Below, one piece after another: positions 16,119-41,983 of a DNA stretch of 64,000 nt. The stretch lies in the NCBI RefSeq assembly GCF_009909615.1, contig NZ_WWNE01000018.1, positions 7,393 to 71,392 of the forward strand, in the 5' to 3' direction. The notes beneath the pieces were generated by a model. That model searched no databases. It was not told the origin of the DNA and saw nothing but the letters and a program-made list of their open reading frames with translations. How positions within the stretch are numbered: position 1 is the first letter of the stretch; each line of letters begins with the position of its first letter. The position numbers and the translations under genes are program-made. This stretch comes from Acidiluteibacter ferrifornacis (GTDB taxonomy: Bacteria > Bacteroidota > Bacteroidia > Flavobacteriales_E > Vicingaceae).

Positions 16119-17324
16119 CTAATTCTCAAAACCAGATTCATCCACTACTTTAATCTTCCGAGCAATGATGATGGATAGAATTCCCATTGCAATAGCGATA
16201 TAGCCTACCCAATCGTAATGATGTAATAATCCATCTTCGCCTTGGGTAATAATTAATCCTCCAAAGTAAGCAGCAAATCCATTGGTCAATTGACGGCATG
16301 CAGAGTTAAAACTCATGAAACTACCTCTGTTTTTTGGTCGAACTGATGAGGTAATCATAGCCGTTGATGGGATCATGCGCCCTGAACCGAAAACAAAGAA
16401 AAAAGAAGTGATTAACAGTACAATCCAGATCGGCTGTTCTGTTAAATTGGTGAGAAAGAATATGGGGAATGAAACGATAATCACCGCAATAACAAAGATC
16501 TTTAATCGTCCAAAACGGTCAGCTAAACGGCCTATTAGTGGAGCGGTGAATATAGTTAACCCTCCTCCAATTAGATAGATATACGTAATGTCTTTTTCAG
16601 AAAAACCCACATTTGTCACTAAGTATGGACTAATAAAAGGGACGACTGAAAAATGACTAAACATGATGATAACGCCAAACAACAATGCGTAAAGTTGATT
16701 TTTATTTTCTAGTACATTTCTAACAATTGCAATTGGAGACTCTCTATCCGCACGGCTAACAATGTGTGTATTCATTGTGGGAATGAATTTTGCAATAGGG
16801 ATTAGAGTTAATAACGCAATCACACCTAGCGAAATAAAGGGAAAATGCCAATCGGATAAAGTGGCTAAGTACAATCCAAGAGGCACTCCGACAACTGAGG
16901 CCAAAGAAAAGGAGGCCATTACCAAACCCATAGCCCCAGCTCTTCGCTCATTGGGGACTGCATCCCCAATGATTGATAAAATTAATGCACTTAGAATTCC
17001 ACCAAATGACCCAGTAAAAGCTCTGGTGAAAAGCAACAAATAATAGCTGCTGGAGAAGCCACAGGCCAATGTGCCTAAAGCAAAACCTGTCGCCATAATG
17101 ATAAGCATTTTCTTACGGTCGAAACGATCTATAAAGAAAGCGCCAACAAATCCAAAAATGCCGGCACTAAATGTATAGGCTGAAACCAGCAATGCAAATT
17201 GGCTTGGCAGAATATCAAATGCACGCATCAGGGTAGGTCCTAACGGCATTAAAATCATAAAGTCAGTAATGTGAGAAAATTGAATGACTGCTAGGGTTAA
17301 TAGCAGTGCTCGTTCTTTGTTCAT
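16119..17324 (-). CDS. MFS transporter
   Basis: 401 residues with about 12 membrane helices. The MFS motif A region GAFFIDRFDRKKMLI lies after helix 2 (about residues 60-74), and its half-repeat GRLADRFGRLKIFVI falls between helices 8 and 9. The opening FSHITDFMILMPLGPTL resembles drug/metabolite exporters such as the AraJ/YdhP group, so efflux is a reasonable guess but the substrate is not. Single leftward gene; a possible -7 box TAATTTTG lies at 17386-17393. Confidence 0.9.
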   Translation of the reverse strand: MNKERALLLTLAVIQFSHITDFMILMPLGPTLMRAFDILPSQFALLVSAYTFSAGIFGFVGAFFIDRFDRKKMLIIMATGFALGTLACGFSSSYYLLLFTRAFTGSFGGILSALILSIIGDAVPNERRAGAMGLVMASFSLASVVGVPLGLYLATLSDWHFPFISLGVIALLTLIPIAKFIPTMNTHIVSRADRESPIAIVRNVLENKNQLYALLFGVIIMFSHFSVVPFISPYLVTNVGFSEKDITYIYLIGGGLTIFTAPLIGRLADRFGRLKIFVIAVIIVSFPIFFLTNLTEQPIWIVLLITSFFFVFGSGRMIPSTAMITSSVRPKNRGSFMSFNSACRQLTNGFAAYFGGLIITQGEDGLLHHYDWVGYIAIAMGILSIIIARKIKVVDESGFEN

Positions 17325-17625: not shown

Positions 17626-18639
17626 TTACTTCGCTTCTTGTTCTATATAAGCTCTTAAATCTTCTATCTGCTGTGGACTCATTCTTTCTTCAGGATAAAG
17701 TGGCATATATCTAGGTTTTCCTTTGTCTGCATAAGTGCCATGAACTACAATGTCATAAATGTTATAATAACTGTTTTTGTCCAAGTTTCTTTTGAATTTT
17801 TGGAATGTCACCTTTGCATTGTCCAGAAGAATTGGGGAAACTCCTCCGGCTTGATGGCAAGCCTGACAACTTAATTCATATAGCCTTTTTCCATTCGTCG
17901 GGTCACCAACTAAACCAGAATATCCTTCAATTTTATTAGTTGGATTTTTCGGAAAGGTGGCAGGGCTTTTTAGTGCGTATTTAGATTTTAATAGTTTGAT
18001 TTTATCTTCTTTTTTCCCTTCTGACTGCAATTTATTCAACTCTTCATCGGTTAGATTTAAATCTCCAATGGTTAACTGAATAGATGCATAATACGCCAAT
18101 ATGGCTTCTAATTCCCAATCTTCTAAATAGCGACCAGAGGAACAAACTTTAGCACATAACTGTGTGGCCTCTTCTAAACTTTTGTTGGCAGGAATAACTA
18201 GGTCTCCATATTTCAATACATAATCATCGTTGTACCAACTTTCTCGGTTATACATTCCCCAGAAGGTAGTTGCAGGTAGAAATTTTAGATTGTTTTTTTC
18301 TGCATGTAATAATCGCGCTTGTGGATCAAATTGAGTAATGTTCGGATCTTCTTGTACTTGATTGTGGCAGCTTGTACAAGCAAAATACTTACTGATAAAA
18401 GGAGACATCTTTCCATCAGGCCCAACAGTTCGTCCATTAAACACTAATTCTTTTCCTCTCTCTATTTGCTCCTTAGCAGCATTGGGACGGTAATGAGATT
18501 TAGGAGAATCGTTTAACTCTATGAGCACATCACTTAATTTTCTATCCTTAGAAAGGTTTATTTTAGAAAAATTGAAACCCATCCAGCTGAATGATAAGAA
18601 GGATACCAATACTATCGCAACTGATTTTAAGTTTTTCAT
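17626..18639 (-). CDS. Diheme c-type cytochrome
   Basis: 337 residues. An N-terminal hydrophobic segment (7-22) exports it. Two heme sites: CTSCH at 88-92 and CQACH at 258-262, each in its own cytochrome c domain joined by a lysine-rich linker (200-225). Met residues toward the end of the second domain (RYMPLYPEERMSPQQIEDL) are probable axial ligands. An extra cysteine pair at 162 and 166 (LCAKVC) may form a disulfide. Periplasmic electron carrier or redox enzyme subunit. It follows the DUF5777 barrel by 1 bp, so co-transcription is likely. Confidence 0.9.
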   Translation of the reverse strand: MKNLKSVAIVLVSFLSFSWMGFNFSKINLSKDRKLSDVLIELNDSPKSHYRPNAAKEQIERGKELVFNGRTVGPDGKMSPFISKYFACTSCHNQVQEDPNITQFDPQARLLHAEKNNLKFLPATTFWGMYNRESWYNDDYVLKYGDLVIPANKSLEEATQLCAKVCSSGRYLEDWELEAILAYYASIQLTIGDLNLTDEELNKLQSEGKKEDKIKLLKSKYALKSPATFPKNPTNKIEGYSGLVGDPTNGKRLYELSCQACHQAGGVSPILLDNAKVTFQKFKRNLDKNSYYNIYDIVVHGTYADKGKPRYMPLYPEERMSPQQIEDLRAYIEQEAK

Positions 18640-18640
18640 C

Positions 18641-19495
18641 TTACTTATACTTTTTACCTTTCAATTGAAAATCCCTGCTGATGTTGAATCCAAAGTAGAC
18701 ATCTCCTTCGAAAAAATCCTGACGAGTTTCAGAAATAAAAAATTTGTCGATCATACCTTGAGAGTTGGAGACATGTAGTTGGAAAACATGACTTTTGGTT
18801 TGAATATCAAATCCCAAAGAAAGGGAGTTTGTGAACTGATCGCCCAACTGGTCAGGTAAAACATAATAGTATTCTGCTTGGAAAGAAATAATTTTCGATA
18901 GTTGATACCTGGTGGCAGCTCCAATAGCAAACAGGTCGTTTTTTTCAGCTTTTGTGTCTACTAGGTTTTTATGGATGAAAGTGGGCATTATTTGAGCAGA
19001 GAACGCATCACAAAATTTTCGAGCAATCATCAATTGGTGCCCATAAGTCATCCGATTAGCTATGTCGTATTCTTCGCCGGGATTATCTGGGAAATCAGCA
19101 GTTCTGATTGCAAAATTACTTTGCCATGTCATGGTTATTGGCATTTCTCTGGCTCCGACAGATTGCCTTAATAATTTGTATTTGGCAAAGCCATCTACCG
19201 TCTTCTCAAAAGAGCTTCTTCCTATTCCTATTGTAAATCGGTCCGTAACACCATAATCCAGTCCTAATCGAATACTAGCTTCATCTAAACCGAAAAAATT
19301 ATTGATTCCTTGAGATATTAATCCAAAACGATGAGAAATAATAAATTTCAACTGTCCTTCCTCGTTTGTCTCTACTGATTGTCCGTTGACAATTCGCGTA
19401 TCTTTAAATGTTTCACTACTGTATTCTGTTGTTTCTTGAGCAATCAACGAAGTGCCACAAAGCAAAAGAAGTATTCCAAAGCCAAAATTTTTCAT
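18641..19495 (-). CDS. DUF5777 family outer-membrane beta-barrel protein
   Basis: 284 residues, signal peptide ending near SLIAQ. The DUF5777 core is recognisable: LKFIISHRFGLISQGINNFFGLDEASIRLGLDYGVTDRFTIGIGRS, followed by repeated strand pairs ending DVYFGFNISRDFQLKGK. In my experience the family accompanies cytochrome c and YceI-like genes in Bacteroidota; its cargo is unknown. It sits 1 bp upstream of the diheme cytochrome and 6 bp downstream of a heme-binding lipoprotein, which suggests a heme-linked outer-membrane unit. Confidence 0.88.
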   Translation of the reverse strand: MKNFGFGILLLLCGTSLIAQETTEYSSETFKDTRIVNGQSVETNEEGQLKFIISHRFGLISQGINNFFGLDEASIRLGLDYGVTDRFTIGIGRSSFEKTVDGFAKYKLLRQSVGAREMPITMTWQSNFAIRTADFPDNPGEEYDIANRMTYGHQLMIARKFCDAFSAQIMPTFIHKNLVDTKAEKNDLFAIGAATRYQLSKIISFQAEYYYVLPDQLGDQFTNSLSLGFDIQTKSHVFQLHVSNSQGMIDKFFISETRQDFFEGDVYFGFNISRDFQLKGKKYK

Positions 19496-19501
19496 CTTTT
19501 A

Positions 19502-19870
19502 TTAATTATTTGGTGCACCTGCATTTAACCACGACTCTATTTTCTTGATTTCACAATCTGGAAGAGGACCACTAGCAGGCATATCTTTCTTAATCACAAC
19601 ACGTTCTCTAATTTTATCACCGTTATCAATTTTATCTTTAATTCCTTGATAACTTGTAAAATCTCCTTCACTAAAACCACTAACATGACAGCCTGATATT
19701 GCACAATTAGCTGCAATTATGGGATTGATGTCGATACTAAATGACATGGAATCAGTAATGCAAACTTCTGAAGTGTCTTTTGGAAATAATTCTTCTTTAT
19801 TTTCAGATTCGCACGAATTAAACAAGATGGGAAGAGTGATGCCTACCAATATAATGAATTTTGATCGCAT
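19502..19870 (-). CDS. Cytochrome c-like lipoprotein with CX4CH heme motif
   Basis: 122 residues. Lipobox LFNSC (Cys20) makes it a lipoprotein. The heme motif is NCAISGCH (Cys56 to Cys61, His62), with four residues between the cysteines rather than two. DMPASGPLPDCEIKKIESWLNAGAPNN supplies the likely axial Met97 and the typical C-terminal helix of small Bacteroidota cytochrome-like domains. It is the first gene of a three-gene unit with the DUF5777 barrel and the diheme cytochrome, and lies about 90 bp downstream of hemA. Confidence 0.8.
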   Translation of the reverse strand: MRSKFIILVGITLPILFNSCESENKEELFPKDTSEVCITDSMSFSIDINPIIAANCAISGCHVSGFSEGDFTSYQGIKDKIDNGDKIRERVVIKKDMPASGPLPDCEIKKIESWLNAGAPNN

Positions 19871-19962
19871 ATATTATTGTGTTACCTAGGTTTTAATACG
19901 TATATATTAGGGAAAGATAATAAAAAAAGTGAAGGGTCAATTGTTACTATTATTGGAATTCA

Positions 19963-21219
19963 TTAATTTGTCTCTTTTACGGTTTTTTTTTCAAGATTAA
20001 ATAAGTCACTTAATGTTTGTGATATTTGTGAAGCTTCTTCTCTCATGCAAATGGCTTTTAGGTGAAGTACTGGCAATTTTATGATTTTTTGAACTAAATT
20101 TTTGGTAGCAATTTCCAACAATTCAGCTTGACTGTTTTCTATTCCTTTTAGGTGGCGTCCTACTTCTTTTTGTCTCATTTCTTCAAGTGCTGCCTTTAAT
20201 TGTTTTACTACTGGAGAAAACTCCATTTCTTTTTGCCAATCTTTTAATTCATTGATAGATCGTTGGATAATGTAGTTAACTTCATCAATTTTACTTTGTC
20301 TTTTTTGAAGTGTTTGTTCGGTTTGCTCTTTCAAATCATCTACGTTAGCGACGATTATTCCTTGATGACTTTTTAAATTCTGGTCAATACTTCGTGGTAC
20401 AGCTAAGTCGATGTATAATTGATGACGAACACTTTCACTTATAGATTTTTGATTGATTATGGGTTTTTCAGATCTAACAGCTGAAATAATTACCGAGGCA
20501 TTCTCTATAGCCGAGTTTAAAGATTCATAAGGTTGGAATTCAAACCCATATTTTTCAACTATCTTTCTTGCCTTTTCTGGTGAGCGATTAATGATTACAA
20601 TTTGACCATTATAATTTTTGAGATTTTCAGCAACTGTTTGTCCGATTTCACCCATACCAATGATTACTACTTTGGGTCTTCTAAATTGATAACCAAATTC
20701 TCTTGCTCTGCTGACTGCTGCAGATGCTAATGATGTATTTCCCTCTTTAAATTTAGTTTCATGCGTTACTCTTTTGTTGGTGTGAAAAATACTATGTAAT
20801 AATCGATGTAAAAAGGGTCCGGCAGTTTGTTCATCCGCAGAAAGCTGATAGGCCCTTTTTACTTGATTAATAATCTGCATATCTCCTAAAATCATTGAAT
20901 CTAAACCAAGAGAGACATTGTATAGGTGCTTAACTGCGTTCAATCCTTTATAAAGATTGAAGTGTTTAATAATCATTTCTCTGGGTAGTCTAACTTTTAG
21001 CGCCAGTAATCTATACACTTGATCTACTTTTTGTTTTGGGGCTGAGAAATATATTTCTGTCCGGTTACATGTAGCTAATATTAGTATGTCTTCAAGTCCT
21101 AGAAGAGATTTGAACTGATGAAGTAATCCTCTTACTTTTTCATCGTCAAATGAAAACAATTCTCGAAATTGGATGGAAGTATCTTTATAGGAAAGGGAGA
21201 GTGCGTTGAATTGTTTCAT
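19963..21219 (-). CDS. hemA: Glutamyl-tRNA reductase
   Basis: 418 residues, full length. First committed step of tetrapyrrole synthesis by the C5 route: reduces glutamyl-tRNA to glutamate-1-semialdehyde. Catalytic Cys51 lies in LATCNRTEIY. The substrate region RLLHSIFHTNKRVTHETK, the NADPH-binding VVIIGMGEIGQTVAENL and the C-terminal dimerisation helix are present. Cytosolic. It sits inside a block of heme proteins on the same strand, separated from the upstream globin-like gene by a terminator hairpin. Confidence 0.97.
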   Translation of the reverse strand: MKQFNALSLSYKDTSIQFRELFSFDDEKVRGLLHQFKSLLGLEDILILATCNRTEIYFSAPKQKVDQVYRLLALKVRLPREMIIKHFNLYKGLNAVKHLYNVSLGLDSMILGDMQIINQVKRAYQLSADEQTAGPFLHRLLHSIFHTNKRVTHETKFKEGNTSLASAAVSRAREFGYQFRRPKVVIIGMGEIGQTVAENLKNYNGQIVIINRSPEKARKIVEKYGFEFQPYESLNSAIENASVIISAVRSEKPIINQKSISESVRHQLYIDLAVPRSIDQNLKSHQGIIVANVDDLKEQTEQTLQKRQSKIDEVNYIIQRSINELKDWQKEMEFSPVVKQLKAALEEMRQKEVGRHLKGIENSQAELLEIATKNLVQKIIKLPVLHLKAICMREEASQISQTLSDLFNLEKKTVKETN

Positions 21220-21238
21220 AAGGTTAAGGGGGTTTAAA

Positions 21239-21265
21239 ATCCCTTAGCAGTTTGCTAAGGGATAA
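21239..21265 (-). terminator. Hairpin between globin-like gene and hemA
   Basis: ATCCCTTAGCA (21239-21249) and TGCTAAGGGAT (21253-21263) form an 11-bp perfect stem with a 3-nt loop. On the minus strand it is followed by TTTTAAA. It could end the globin-like transcript or attenuate read-through into hemA. Confidence 0.65.
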
Positions 21266-21277
21266 ATTAAGATTAGA

Positions 21278-21856
21278 TTATCTCTGTACTACTTGTGGTC
21301 TTAGCGTCTCCAATAGTGCACCAATTTCTCCAATAATCGGATCTGTTGGTGGAACACCATTTTGACCTGCACCGGTTACAACATCAGCAATAAATGCGTC
21401 CATAGCTGCATCGTCAGCTTTCTGAGCCATTCTTGAATACTTTGCAGGATCGTGAGCATCTGTCATATTTCTACCGTTGTAGGTGATAGTTTTAGATCCT
21501 GTTGCCGCACTAAAGAAGTTCGTTAAAGACATACTCAATGCTGTAAACCCAGAAAGGTCTCCTTGTCCAACTTCTCCTAAAAGGGTTGTAAAGTAAGGTT
21601 GCAGTAAAGTATCACCTGCAATCACAAATATGGTAGAATCTACCACAGATCTTAGTGTCAACTTTCCTTTCTCAATCATTACTCCGGCATTGTTAGGGTC
21701 TTCAACCATCTCGGTTCCGCCTAATTTTTCATAAATACTCTTTTCCGTTGGAGTCGGAGTAGGAGTTACTACTGTGTCGTCGTCATCGTCTTTACACGAT
21801 GCAAAACTGATGGATACTGCAAGCAATACCAACATTACTTTAAATGGATTTTTCAT
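21278..21856 (-). CDS. Globin-like lipoprotein (truncated-hemoglobin-related)
   Basis: 192 residues. Lipobox SFASC (Cys21), then an Asp-rich and Thr/Pro-rich linker. The remainder follows group 1 truncated hemoglobin order: SIYEKLGGTEMV (40-51, helix A/B region), VVDSTIFVIAGDTLLQPYF (71-89), LTNFFSAATG, TYNGRNMTDAH (125-135, His135 in the proximal-His position) and MDAFIADVVTGAGQNGVP. An insert at about 52-66 separates the first helices. If it binds heme it would do so outside the cytoplasm. Encoded just upstream of hemA. Confidence 0.65.
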   Translation of the reverse strand: MKNPFKVMLVLLAVSISFASCKDDDDDTVVTPTPTPTEKSIYEKLGGTEMVEDPNNAGVMIEKGKLTLRSVVDSTIFVIAGDTLLQPYFTTLLGEVGQGDLSGFTALSMSLTNFFSAATGSKTITYNGRNMTDAHDPAKYSRMAQKADDAAMDAFIADVVTGAGQNGVPPTDPIIGEIGALLETLRPQVVQR

Positions 21857-21888
21857 GATAATATAGTTTTAATGAATAAAAGTGATTA

Positions 21889-22332
21889 CTAGTTTTGAAA
21901 GATGTTTTGAAAGAAACTCCCCATCTTATAGGAGATAGAATTTTTATCAATGACAGGACAACTTGCAGCTAATTGCTCTTTAGAAGGAGTAAATAGGGCA
22001 GTGTTCAAACCTGTTTTTGTAGAAAAATTATTATAAATGCTCATTGCTGAGAATTCTTTTGGAAAGTAGGCAAATACTACAGTGCCGTGTTCTTTATTGA
22101 TAACCACTCTTTCCACTCCTTCTACAGATTTGAATGAATTGTTGATTTCTTTGACATGATTATCGGAAAGGGGTAATTCTTCATTGATGTCAATCCGACT
22201 CAACTGCCACCCCCGGGTTGGATTTTTCTCTGGCTCAGGCGTTACTAAATAGATATGAACGGCAAGAATAATTACCAATAGAGCGAATATAGAACCTATC
22301 CCGATTGCTATTTTTAAGAATGTCTTTTTCAT
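21889..22332 (-). CDS. Membrane-anchored protein with HMA-like fold
   Basis: 147 residues. One membrane helix (8-30), then a soluble domain. WQLSRIDINEELPLSDNHVKEINNSFKSVEGVERVVINKEHGTVVFAYFPKE has the strand-helix-strand spacing and the gapped VEGV..V.IN....V.V pattern of heavy-metal-associated domains, but the metal-binding CxxC is absent. A later AASCPVIDKNS holds the only cysteine. Function unknown; its position 33 bp upstream of the globin-like gene suggests the same transcript. Confidence 0.55.
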   Translation of the reverse strand: MKKTFLKIAIGIGSIFALLVIILAVHIYLVTPEPEKNPTRGWQLSRIDINEELPLSDNHVKEINNSFKSVEGVERVVINKEHGTVVFAYFPKEFSAMSIYNNFSTKTGLNTALFTPSKEQLAASCPVIDKNSISYKMGSFFQNIFQN

Positions 22333-22428: not shown

Positions 22429-22460
22429 AAAAGGCCTAAAGATTATTCTTTAGGCCTTTA
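22429..22460. terminator. Bidirectional-looking terminator
   Basis: AAAGGCCTAAAGA and TCTTTAGGCCTTT form a 13-bp perfect stem with a 4-nt loop. It is downstream of the 22481-24055 gene on the minus strand. Confidence 0.85.
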
Positions 22461-41333: not shown

Positions 41334-41473
41334 TTTTAGCAGGTAAAAATTACACTTTTCAAACGGATTCCCCAAAAGCCATTTTTGAGAATTAACTATT
41401 TTTTGGAGATGGTGTAGGATAACCTCAATTGTTATCAGTTTACTTTAGAAAATCTAATTTCGTTGGGTCTTGT
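41334..41473. repeat. Direct repeat copy 1 (about 140 bp)
   Basis: Runs from TTTTAGC at 41334 to TTGGGTCTTGT at 41473. It covers the spacer upstream of the Sua5/YrdC gene and the last 11 codons of the toxin gene. About 95 percent identical to 42182-42320: six substitutions and one single-base gap counted by eye. Confidence 0.9.
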
Positions 41474-41742
41474 CGCGTATCAAAAAGTCTAATGATTTCA
41501 ATTCTGTCATTCTTTTCTCTATAGAACAATGTGTTTTGTTTGGTTAAAACACTTTTTCGTATGCCATATTGCTCGTTTATAAGAGGAAACATTTGAGGGT
41601 CTTTAAGAATTAAATCAATGTTTTCTTCTACTTTATTGATGAATCTTCTTGTAATTTGATTATTCCATCTGACTTGCAGATATTTTAAAATCGATTCAAA
41701 ATCTTTCTCAGCATCAGGAGACCAAAAGATTTCTCTAGTCAT
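41440..41742 (-). CDS. RelE/ParE family toxin
   Basis: 100 residues. FWSPDAEKDFESILKYLQVRWNNQITRRFINKVEENIDLILKDPQMFPL is the family's helix-helix-strand layout. RKSVLTKQNTLFYREKNDRIEIIRLFDTRQDPTKLDF supplies the basic and aromatic C-terminal sheet. It could cleave ribosome-bound mRNA (RelE-like) or poison gyrase (ParE-like); the sequence does not decide. Its start overlaps the antitoxin end by 8 bp. The last codons lie inside direct repeat copy 1. Confidence 0.88.
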   Translation of the reverse strand: MTREIFWSPDAEKDFESILKYLQVRWNNQITRRFINKVEENIDLILKDPQMFPLINEQYGIRKSVLTKQNTLFYREKNDRIEIIRLFDTRQDPTKLDFLK

Positions 41743-41983
41743 TTACAAAGCGATTTCTCATTTCAATCATTACTTCATTATGACTTCTTCCTTGTCCATT
41801 CTCTAATTGTTCAACTCCATGTAATATTGCAGCTTGTTGCTCATCAGTAAGATTCTGCCATTCATTAACATCACTCTCACCATTGATGTAATTAACGAGG
41901 ATGCCATAAGCTTCTTCCAAGGTTTTCCCTTTTAAAGCGTCCAACTTTCTAAATAAGTCAATTTTGATTTCAGCTGAATTCAT
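41735..41983 (-). CDS. Antitoxin of RelE/ParE-type module
   Basis: 82 residues. The C-terminal part LTDEQQAAILHGVEQLENGQGRSHNEVMIEMRNRF is characteristic of small Bacteroidota antitoxins paired with RelE/ParE toxins (addiction-module component-like, PF09720 relatives). The N-terminal EIKIDLFRKLDALKGKTLEEAYGILVNYI is helical. It precedes and overlaps the toxin gene. Its promoter region carries a perfect inverted repeat, suggesting autorepression by the toxin-antitoxin complex. Confidence 0.82.
   Translation of the reverse strand: MNSAEIKIDLFRKLDALKGKTLEEAYGILVNYINGESDVNEWQNLTDEQQAAILHGVEQLENGQGRSHNEVMIEMRNRFVND

Follow-up and report, generated by a model that had tools for sequence, protein, structure and literature searches.

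A candidate heme-supply-coupled envelope module of Bacteroidota with an exported globin, an HMA-fold partner, an additional hemA and a DUF5777 barrel/cytochrome set

Results and Discussion

Six genes on the minus strand of a 64,000-nucleotide stretch of the Acidiluteibacter ferrifornacis genome (RefSeq contig NZ_WWNE01000018.1, positions 7,393 to 71,392; hereafter the window, in which all coordinates are given unless another locus is named) are best explained, at a probability that we put at roughly 0.45, as a heme-supply-coupled envelope module of Bacteroidota that consists of two functionally linked sets. One set comprises an anchored protein resembling heavy-metal-associated (HMA) domains, an exported globin-like lipoprotein and a hemA gene, and the other a small c-type lipoprotein, a DUF5777 barrel and a diheme cytochrome c. 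A sequence-only reading of the window had reported these genes at 17626-22332, on one strand and with the last three 1-6 bp apart, and each of the six predicted open reading frames (ORFs) was indeed found on the minus strand with the same limits, the gaps being 6 bp between the lipoprotein with the CX4CH site and DUF5777, and 1 bp between DUF5777 and the diheme cytochrome c. In the order in which they are read, the genes are:

21889..22332, minus strand: HMA-like anchored protein, 147 aa, with an N-terminal membrane helix, a ferredoxin-like HMA fold, no metal Cys loop and an invariant C-terminal Cys125-Pro126
21278..21856, minus strand: exported globin-like lipoprotein, 192 aa, with a group 1 truncated-haemoglobin fold, lipobox Cys21 followed by KDDDDD, proximal His135, Phe89 and Ile/Leu at the distal positions
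19963..21219, minus strand: hemA paralogue encoding glutamyl-tRNA reductase, 418 aa, the second copy in the genome
19502..19870, minus strand: monoheme c-type lipoprotein, 122 aa, with a CX4CH site and axial Met97
18641..19495, minus strand: DUF5777 outer-membrane-type beta barrel, 284 aa (PF19089)
17626..18639, minus strand: diheme cytochrome c, 337 aa, with CX2CH at 88-92 and 258-262 and a C-terminal cytochrome c domain

In the first set, a truncated haemoglobin with a lipid anchor and a predicted place on the outer face of the cell would work with a membrane-anchored HMA-fold partner whose invariant Cys-Pro may ligate heme in transit, and the pair would often be served by a hemA of its own, which would boost the committed step in heme synthesis whenever the module is expressed. 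In the second set, the monoheme c lipoprotein, the DUF5777 barrel and either YceI or the diheme cytochrome would form an outer-membrane barrel/cytochrome set on the electron-handling side, which might exchange electrons with the first set or have a heme supply in common with it. This explanation is based on observed gene content, pairing, recurrent co-location, the extra hemA, the fold and conserved heme-site residues; a direction of electron flow, and diatomic gas binding by the globin, are steps that we infer. Electron transfer and gas sensing, the functions suggested in the sequence-only reading, may likewise belong to the module, judging from residues and signals in its proteins.

The HMA-like gene and the globin form a pair

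The HMA-like gene and the globin occur together at 94 of 99 globin loci, with the contig ending at some of the exceptions, and in 88 of 93 loci the HMA-like gene immediately precedes the globin in the same orientation, at a median gap of 20 bp. The two genes are thus a near-obligate pair. After the HMA-like gene, the most recurrent specific neighbour of the globin is hemA, which was seen at 9 of 93 loci (12 of 99 when later-added loci are included), in every case at +1 and in the orientation of the globin. Sigma factors also turn up repeatedly near the globin, without a fixed position, but such genes are common and were disregarded. On the globin tree, a quick one that does not distinguish gain from loss, parsimony requires six changes for hemA adjacency and three for DUF5777 proximity. 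The neighbourhood that the sequence-only reading expected to recur in relatives is therefore conserved in the survey, as the pair, hemA, and DUF5777 with c-type lipoproteins.

An additional hemA accompanies the pair

Glutamyl-tRNA reductase (GluTR), the product of hemA, catalyzes the committed step of heme synthesis. The window gene scores 303.6 bits against TIGR01035, for which the cut-off is 209.55, and PF05201, PF01488 and PF00745 are all present in its product, which is accordingly a GluTR. The sequence-only reading, which regarded the gene as encoding the entry enzyme of heme synthesis, was correct as to the enzyme, but the gene is an extra copy; the genome holds another hemA, fused to hemC, in a hemAC-hemD-hemB locus. 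The fusion (G000:C16 ~140614-142803, minus strand; L281:2614-4803) encodes 729 aa with GluTR and porphobilinogen deaminase domains. An additional partial ORF in the same locus resembles hemL. A frame of 675-741 aa is found at hemA in all 13 genomes of the window's family that were examined. The window hemA, which shares only ~30% identity with the sequences closest to it in the tree, stands apart from the family's hemA-hemC fusion, in a placement that carries a long-branch warning. It is an additional paralogue, and the housekeeping role lies with the fusion elsewhere in the genome.

Genomes in which hemA adjoins the globin tend to hold more than one copy, with two or three hemA genes in 8 of 11 such genomes when the window genome is left aside (9 of 12 with it), and the five globin genomes without this adjacency have zero or one hemA each. 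Two genomes (G845 and G847, loci L173 and L207) have three hemA copies each, one of the three adjoining the globin pair. Moreover, at one locus (L238) of a genus that we label g6, the globin-linked hemA lies beside hemJ (UPF0093), hemH, hemC, hemD, hemE and hemF. Across g6, two or more hemA copies are found in 11 of 68 globin genomes and in 0 of 132 others (Fisher test, 4e-6); additional copies in that genus are thus confined to genomes with a globin.

The globin is a lipoprotein with an apolar distal pocket

Taken singly, the globin-like protein and the HMA-like protein both fall under Pfam cut-offs, and none of 15 members of the globin family matches PF01152 (Bac_globin) over the cut-off. 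The labels given to the two proteins by the sequence-only reading hold at the level of the families, on profiles and predicted folds. When the mature globin was used as query (the full-length query matched signal peptides only), relatives with 43-62% identity turned up in 15 of the 395 genomes sampled from the class, together with one remote relative. A contig scan with a profile built from the six closer rows, the 16-row alignment being too divergent, then placed the globin in at least 80 named genome contigs from Saprospiraceae, Chitinophagaceae, Flavobacteriaceae, Sphingobacteriaceae and others.

Among PDB entries, the family profile matches group 1 truncated haemoglobins (1.9e-7), in a search made without the sequence from locus L098, a bona fide truncated haemoglobin that could have carried the match. 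That locus holds another kind of exported globin (L098:7562-8026), a short lipoprotein that matches PF01152 at 48.4 bits and has no HMA-like partner. An AlphaFold2 model of the globin computed from 72 sequences has a predicted local distance difference test (pLDDT) value of 86 and superimposes on 3aq5 and 1dlw with template-modelling (TM) scores of 0.89 and 0.90, respectively; the best 50 structural matches are all globins, and the model shows the 2-on-2 fold of group 1 truncated haemoglobins. The proximal His135 (F8) and Phe89 (CD1) are kept in all 72 globins. By its predicted fold, then, the protein would be a group 1 truncated haemoglobin, and these residues suggest that it binds heme.

The polar distal site of that group (Tyr B10, Gln E7/E11) is absent from the family. 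On alignment to Gln-46 and Gln-50 of the Tetrahymena protein, E7 is Leu in 72 of 72 sequences and E11 is Leu in 71 of 72, and the B10 position, mapped through the L098 sequence and less certain than the other two, is Ile76. Such an apolar pocket may favour NO or CO over stabilised O2, or may point to a role as heme carrier.

The lipobox Cys21 is also invariant in the 72 globins, with Lys at +2 in 48 and at +3 in 55 of them and mostly Asp at +4 and +5, so that the commonest residues past the lipidated Cys are K-K-D-D; the window copy, which reads C-K-D-D-D-D-D, is a variant. The lipoprotein surface-export signal of Bacteroidota has been described as C-X-K-(D/E)2-X (PMC5080379). The start of the globin, with both a lipobox and residues that fit this signal, predicts a location on the cell surface.

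The HMA-like partner lacks the metal loop and keeps a Cys-Pro

Similar arguments apply to the partner protein, whose family profile matches the HMA domains of CopA at 1.8e-6. Its predicted structure has a single N-terminal membrane helix followed by a ferredoxin-like domain with the beta-alpha-beta-beta-alpha-beta order of HMA domains, and matches ATP7B (TM 0.85), MNK1 and MerP within a TM range of 0.82-0.85. None of the 67 members examined has a Cys in the loop that holds the metal-binding CXXC, and the sole invariant columns of the family are those of Cys125-Pro126, present in 67 of 67. Cys-Pro was the first heme-regulatory motif to be recognised (PMC11442138). The positively charged N-terminus and the one membrane helix would leave this Cys-Pro on the periplasmic side, in a position to accept heme and pass it on.

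It is most improbable, in our estimation, that the HMA-like protein deals with copper or some other metal instead of heme, and that the globin is a heme-less structural or binding domain. The HMA fold itself and an unusual insert past the proximal His of the globin would fit such a view, but the complete absence of the Cys loop on one side of the pair and the invariance of the proximal His and Phe CD1 on the other speak against it. Heme or porphyrin uptake, in which the surface globin would act as a hemophore-like receptor, DUF5777 as the passage and the HMA-like Cys-Pro as acceptor at the inner membrane, has in its favour the surface-type signal on a lipoprotein of heme-binding fold and the invariant Cys-Pro on a membrane-anchored protein. 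We nevertheless consider uptake very unlikely: the association with heme-synthesis genes, namely the extra hemA and the full hem locus, is the opposite of what scavenging needs, and neither a TonB-dependent receptor nor a heme ABC transporter was seen as a recurrent globin neighbour in the neighbourhood survey.

The DUF5777 barrel travels with c-type cytochromes

The identity of the DUF5777 protein is certain (PF19089, 3.5e-92), and the names that the sequence-only reading had attached to it, to hemA and to the diheme cytochrome proved right, the last on the strength of a PF13442 match for the second heme domain. DUF5777 occurs in 116 of 297 Bacteroidota genomes sampled (~40%), and 39 of 41 close relatives carry the DUF5777 set. 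Forty DUF5777 loci were compared; a small c-type lipoprotein is found at 35 of them, YceI (PF04264) at 27, an OB-fold protein at 12 and a diheme cytochrome at nine, the last at loci without YceI. In the window's family (L099-L102, L109, L112, L116) the diheme cytochrome stands in the place of YceI beside DUF5777, and the two seem interchangeable. The monoheme c lipoprotein, DUF5777 and diheme cytochrome c are conserved in that family without the globin set. At four loci in genomes from different families (L108, L124, L130, L132), hemD lies two genes from DUF5777 with another protein between them; this may be a housekeeping hemD neighbourhood, and it was kept out of the evidence.

The 122-aa lipoprotein of the window, searched on its own, has zero family matches. 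Its homologues, however, carry C-X2-CH, C-X3-CH or C-X4-CH in one alignment column, and in 21 sequences the lipobox Cys, Cys56, Cys61, His62 and Met97, the last within a Met-Pro, are all invariant. By its pattern, the CX4CH sequence is a c-type heme site of variable spacing and the protein, which the sequence-only reading had already taken for a c-type heme protein, a monoheme cytochrome. The diheme cytochrome has a certain cytochrome c domain at its C-terminus (PF13442) and an N-terminal heme domain without assigned family; its profile finds general cytochrome c domains only in the PDB, for the C-terminal half. A Cys-rich stretch suggested a TsdA/SoxA-type protein, and this assignment was rejected when PF21342 gave zero matches at E<=10 in the whole genome.

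These features might also describe a conduit for extracellular electron transfer, of split Cyc2 or porin-cytochrome type, in which the lipoprotein plugs the DUF5777 barrel, the diheme cytochrome relays electrons, and the globin and hemA are accessory. Such a conduit, which we regard as improbable, would account for the barrel and c-type lipoprotein being the conserved core of 35 of the 40 loci, for the invariance of the small protein's lipobox, heme site and axial Met, and for the replacement of YceI by the diheme cytochrome in 8-9 relatives, and it has a precedent in Cyc2, a fused monoheme cytochrome-porin (PMC10734462). It has to contend with the presence of one and two hemes only, with no multiheme protein, and with the encoding of cytochrome and barrel by separate genes; in addition, we found no relation of DUF5777 to MtrB, to porins of the porin-cytochrome complexes (PCC) or to Cyc2, and the globin and the extra hemA are left without explanation.

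The two sets meet in three lineages

The window genes are read in the order HMA-like, globin, hemA, lipoprotein, DUF5777, diheme cytochrome. A metagenome-assembled genome (MAG) from Chitinophagaceae (L146) has instead the order globin, OB protein, CX2CH lipoprotein, YceI, DUF5777, and in genus g6 (L238, L239) the OB protein and DUF5777 precede HMA-like, globin and hemA, with YceI genes and a c lipoprotein divergent. Because three lineages show three gene orders, repeated assembly is indicated and not one inherited order. Among 200 genomes of g6 there are 71 clear globin copies in 68 genomes. Of these copies, 30 lie no more than 2.5 kb from hemA and 22 no more than 2.5 kb from DUF5777, all 22 being among the 30; these counts are lower bounds, the positions having been copied by hand and weak or unlisted matches excluded. 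The DUF5777-linked copies are spread over 21 genomes.

What we have here are two conserved modules side by side and not one fixed six-gene unit. The idea of a heme-centred system, put forward in the sequence-only reading, accordingly survives in part: the grouping is real and recurrent, but it is modular, and in all same-family relatives examined the DUF5777 set occurs with no globin. A genome of the same genus (G297) has lepB and dapB immediately after the cytochrome/DUF5777/lipoprotein operon, and hemA, globin and HMA-like gene are all missing from that place. Since this genome and the other family relatives are without the HMA-like/globin/hemA cassette, and since the window hemA is unlike the family's fusion, the window's lineage probably acquired the cassette, next to a resident operon.

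Such a gain raises the question of whether the two modules are unrelated chance neighbours, an acquired cassette having landed by a resident operon with no joint function here. In support of this alternative, the resident set stands alone in the same genus and family, the window hemA is not related to the hemA-hemC fusion of that family, and most globin loci lack DUF5777. We judge it unlikely because the sets also adjoin in the Chitinophagaceae MAG and in the 21 g6 genomes, in differing orders and always on one strand, because every DUF5777-linked copy in g6 is hemA-linked as well, and because chance would bring the modules close in ~0.2 lineages compared to the three seen, by a rough estimate from gene numbers that involves no formal test.

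Two hairpins were found around the cassette:

22430..22459, minus strand: intrinsic-terminator-like hairpin with a 13-bp stem and then a T-rich tail, which sets the module apart from the upstream gene
21241..21261, minus strand: perfect 9-bp inverted repeat between globin and hemA, CCCTTAGCA-AAC-TGCTAAGGG and then ATTTT, as read from the sequence

A number of observations weigh against a heme-supply-coupled module. The second hairpin is a possible attenuator or weak terminator, and co-transcription of globin and hemA is uncertain because this perfect repeat lies between them. Neither hemA nor DUF5777 is obligatory for the globin, 87 of 99 globin loci having no hemA nearby and 95 of 99 no DUF5777 in the stretch read. 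The DUF5777 set is much more widespread than the globin, and in the family to which the window belongs it stands without a globin partner, the cassette being missing from 24 of 24 relatives. The g6 counts of hemA come from related genomes, so that the Fisher test value overstates their independence and is a guide only. As to the proteins, the distal-site positions of the globin were mapped by alignment and not from a solved structure, and many proteins with a Cys-Pro are not heme binders.

Heme-supply coupling could be taken one step further, to a dedicated heme line to the surface in many Bacteroidota, in which an extra GluTR raises heme synthesis, the Cys-Pro HMA-fold protein hands the heme over, and the recipients are the globin with its apolar pocket and the cytochrome/barrel pair. 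We hold this extension to be somewhat unlikely; it would, if true, represent a new kind of extracytoplasmic heme delivery joined to gas or electron handling. An extracytoplasmic truncated haemoglobin is itself unusual, and here it is paired near-obligately with a Cys-Pro HMA-fold protein and repeatedly with a hemA paralogue of its own. The globin, HMA-like and hemA genes could thus open a direct way to study how heme is brought to proteins beyond the inner membrane other than by cytochrome c maturation, and the locus would give a first functional context to DUF5777, a barrel family of ~40% of the sampled Bacteroidota genomes. A literature search on DUF5777, on YceI with a barrel and cytochrome, and on surface globins in Bacteroidota, which covered few subscription papers, found no description.

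Other features of the window and of a related locus

At 16119-17324 on the minus strand, the window encodes a major facilitator superfamily exporter whose best model is the myxochelin (siderophore) exporter MxcK, with a match (3e-98) that falls under the cut-off of the model. A ParE-type toxin (PF05016, 7e-12) and an 82-aa upstream partner at 41440-41983, also on the minus strand, are likely to be a toxin-antitoxin pair. In a genome of the same genus, a three-gene unit (86 aa, 335-342 aa and ~511 aa) is duplicated in tandem beside the syntenic locus (L099:429-6431).

Comparison with known systems

The globin shares with the group 1 truncated haemoglobins (TrHb1), such as Tetrahymena trHb and Mycobacterium tuberculosis HbN, the 2-on-2 fold, a Gly-Gly near the start, Phe CD1 and the proximal His. 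Unlike them, it is exported as a lipoprotein, has apolar distal positions, lies out of reach of PF01152, and carries a ~20-residue insert on the N-terminal side in addition to the loop past the proximal His. Its partner has the ferredoxin-like fold in common with the HMA domains of CopA, ATP7B and MerP but is membrane-anchored, without CXXC and with a conserved C-terminal Cys-Pro. That invariant Cys-Pro also recalls the heme-regulatory-motif proteins, from which the HMA-like protein, as a putative heme binder, differs in its extracytoplasmic HMA fold.

The DUF5777 set has a parallel in Cyc2, where one small c-type heme domain is likewise combined with an outer-membrane-type barrel; the parts of the DUF5777 set, however, are separate ORFs, the heme protein is a lipoprotein, YceI or a diheme cytochrome is added, and no sequence link to Cyc2 was shown. 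The porin-cytochrome complexes (MtrCAB, PCC) resemble the set in having a barrel gene that adjoins c-type cytochromes in tight order, and differ from it in their multiheme cytochromes, the DUF5777 set having one and two heme motifs and a small barrel of ~250 residues. Finally, the window hemA is a full match to TIGR01035, as expected for a glutamyl-tRNA reductase HemA, but it is a second, unfused copy that is tied to a globin pair.

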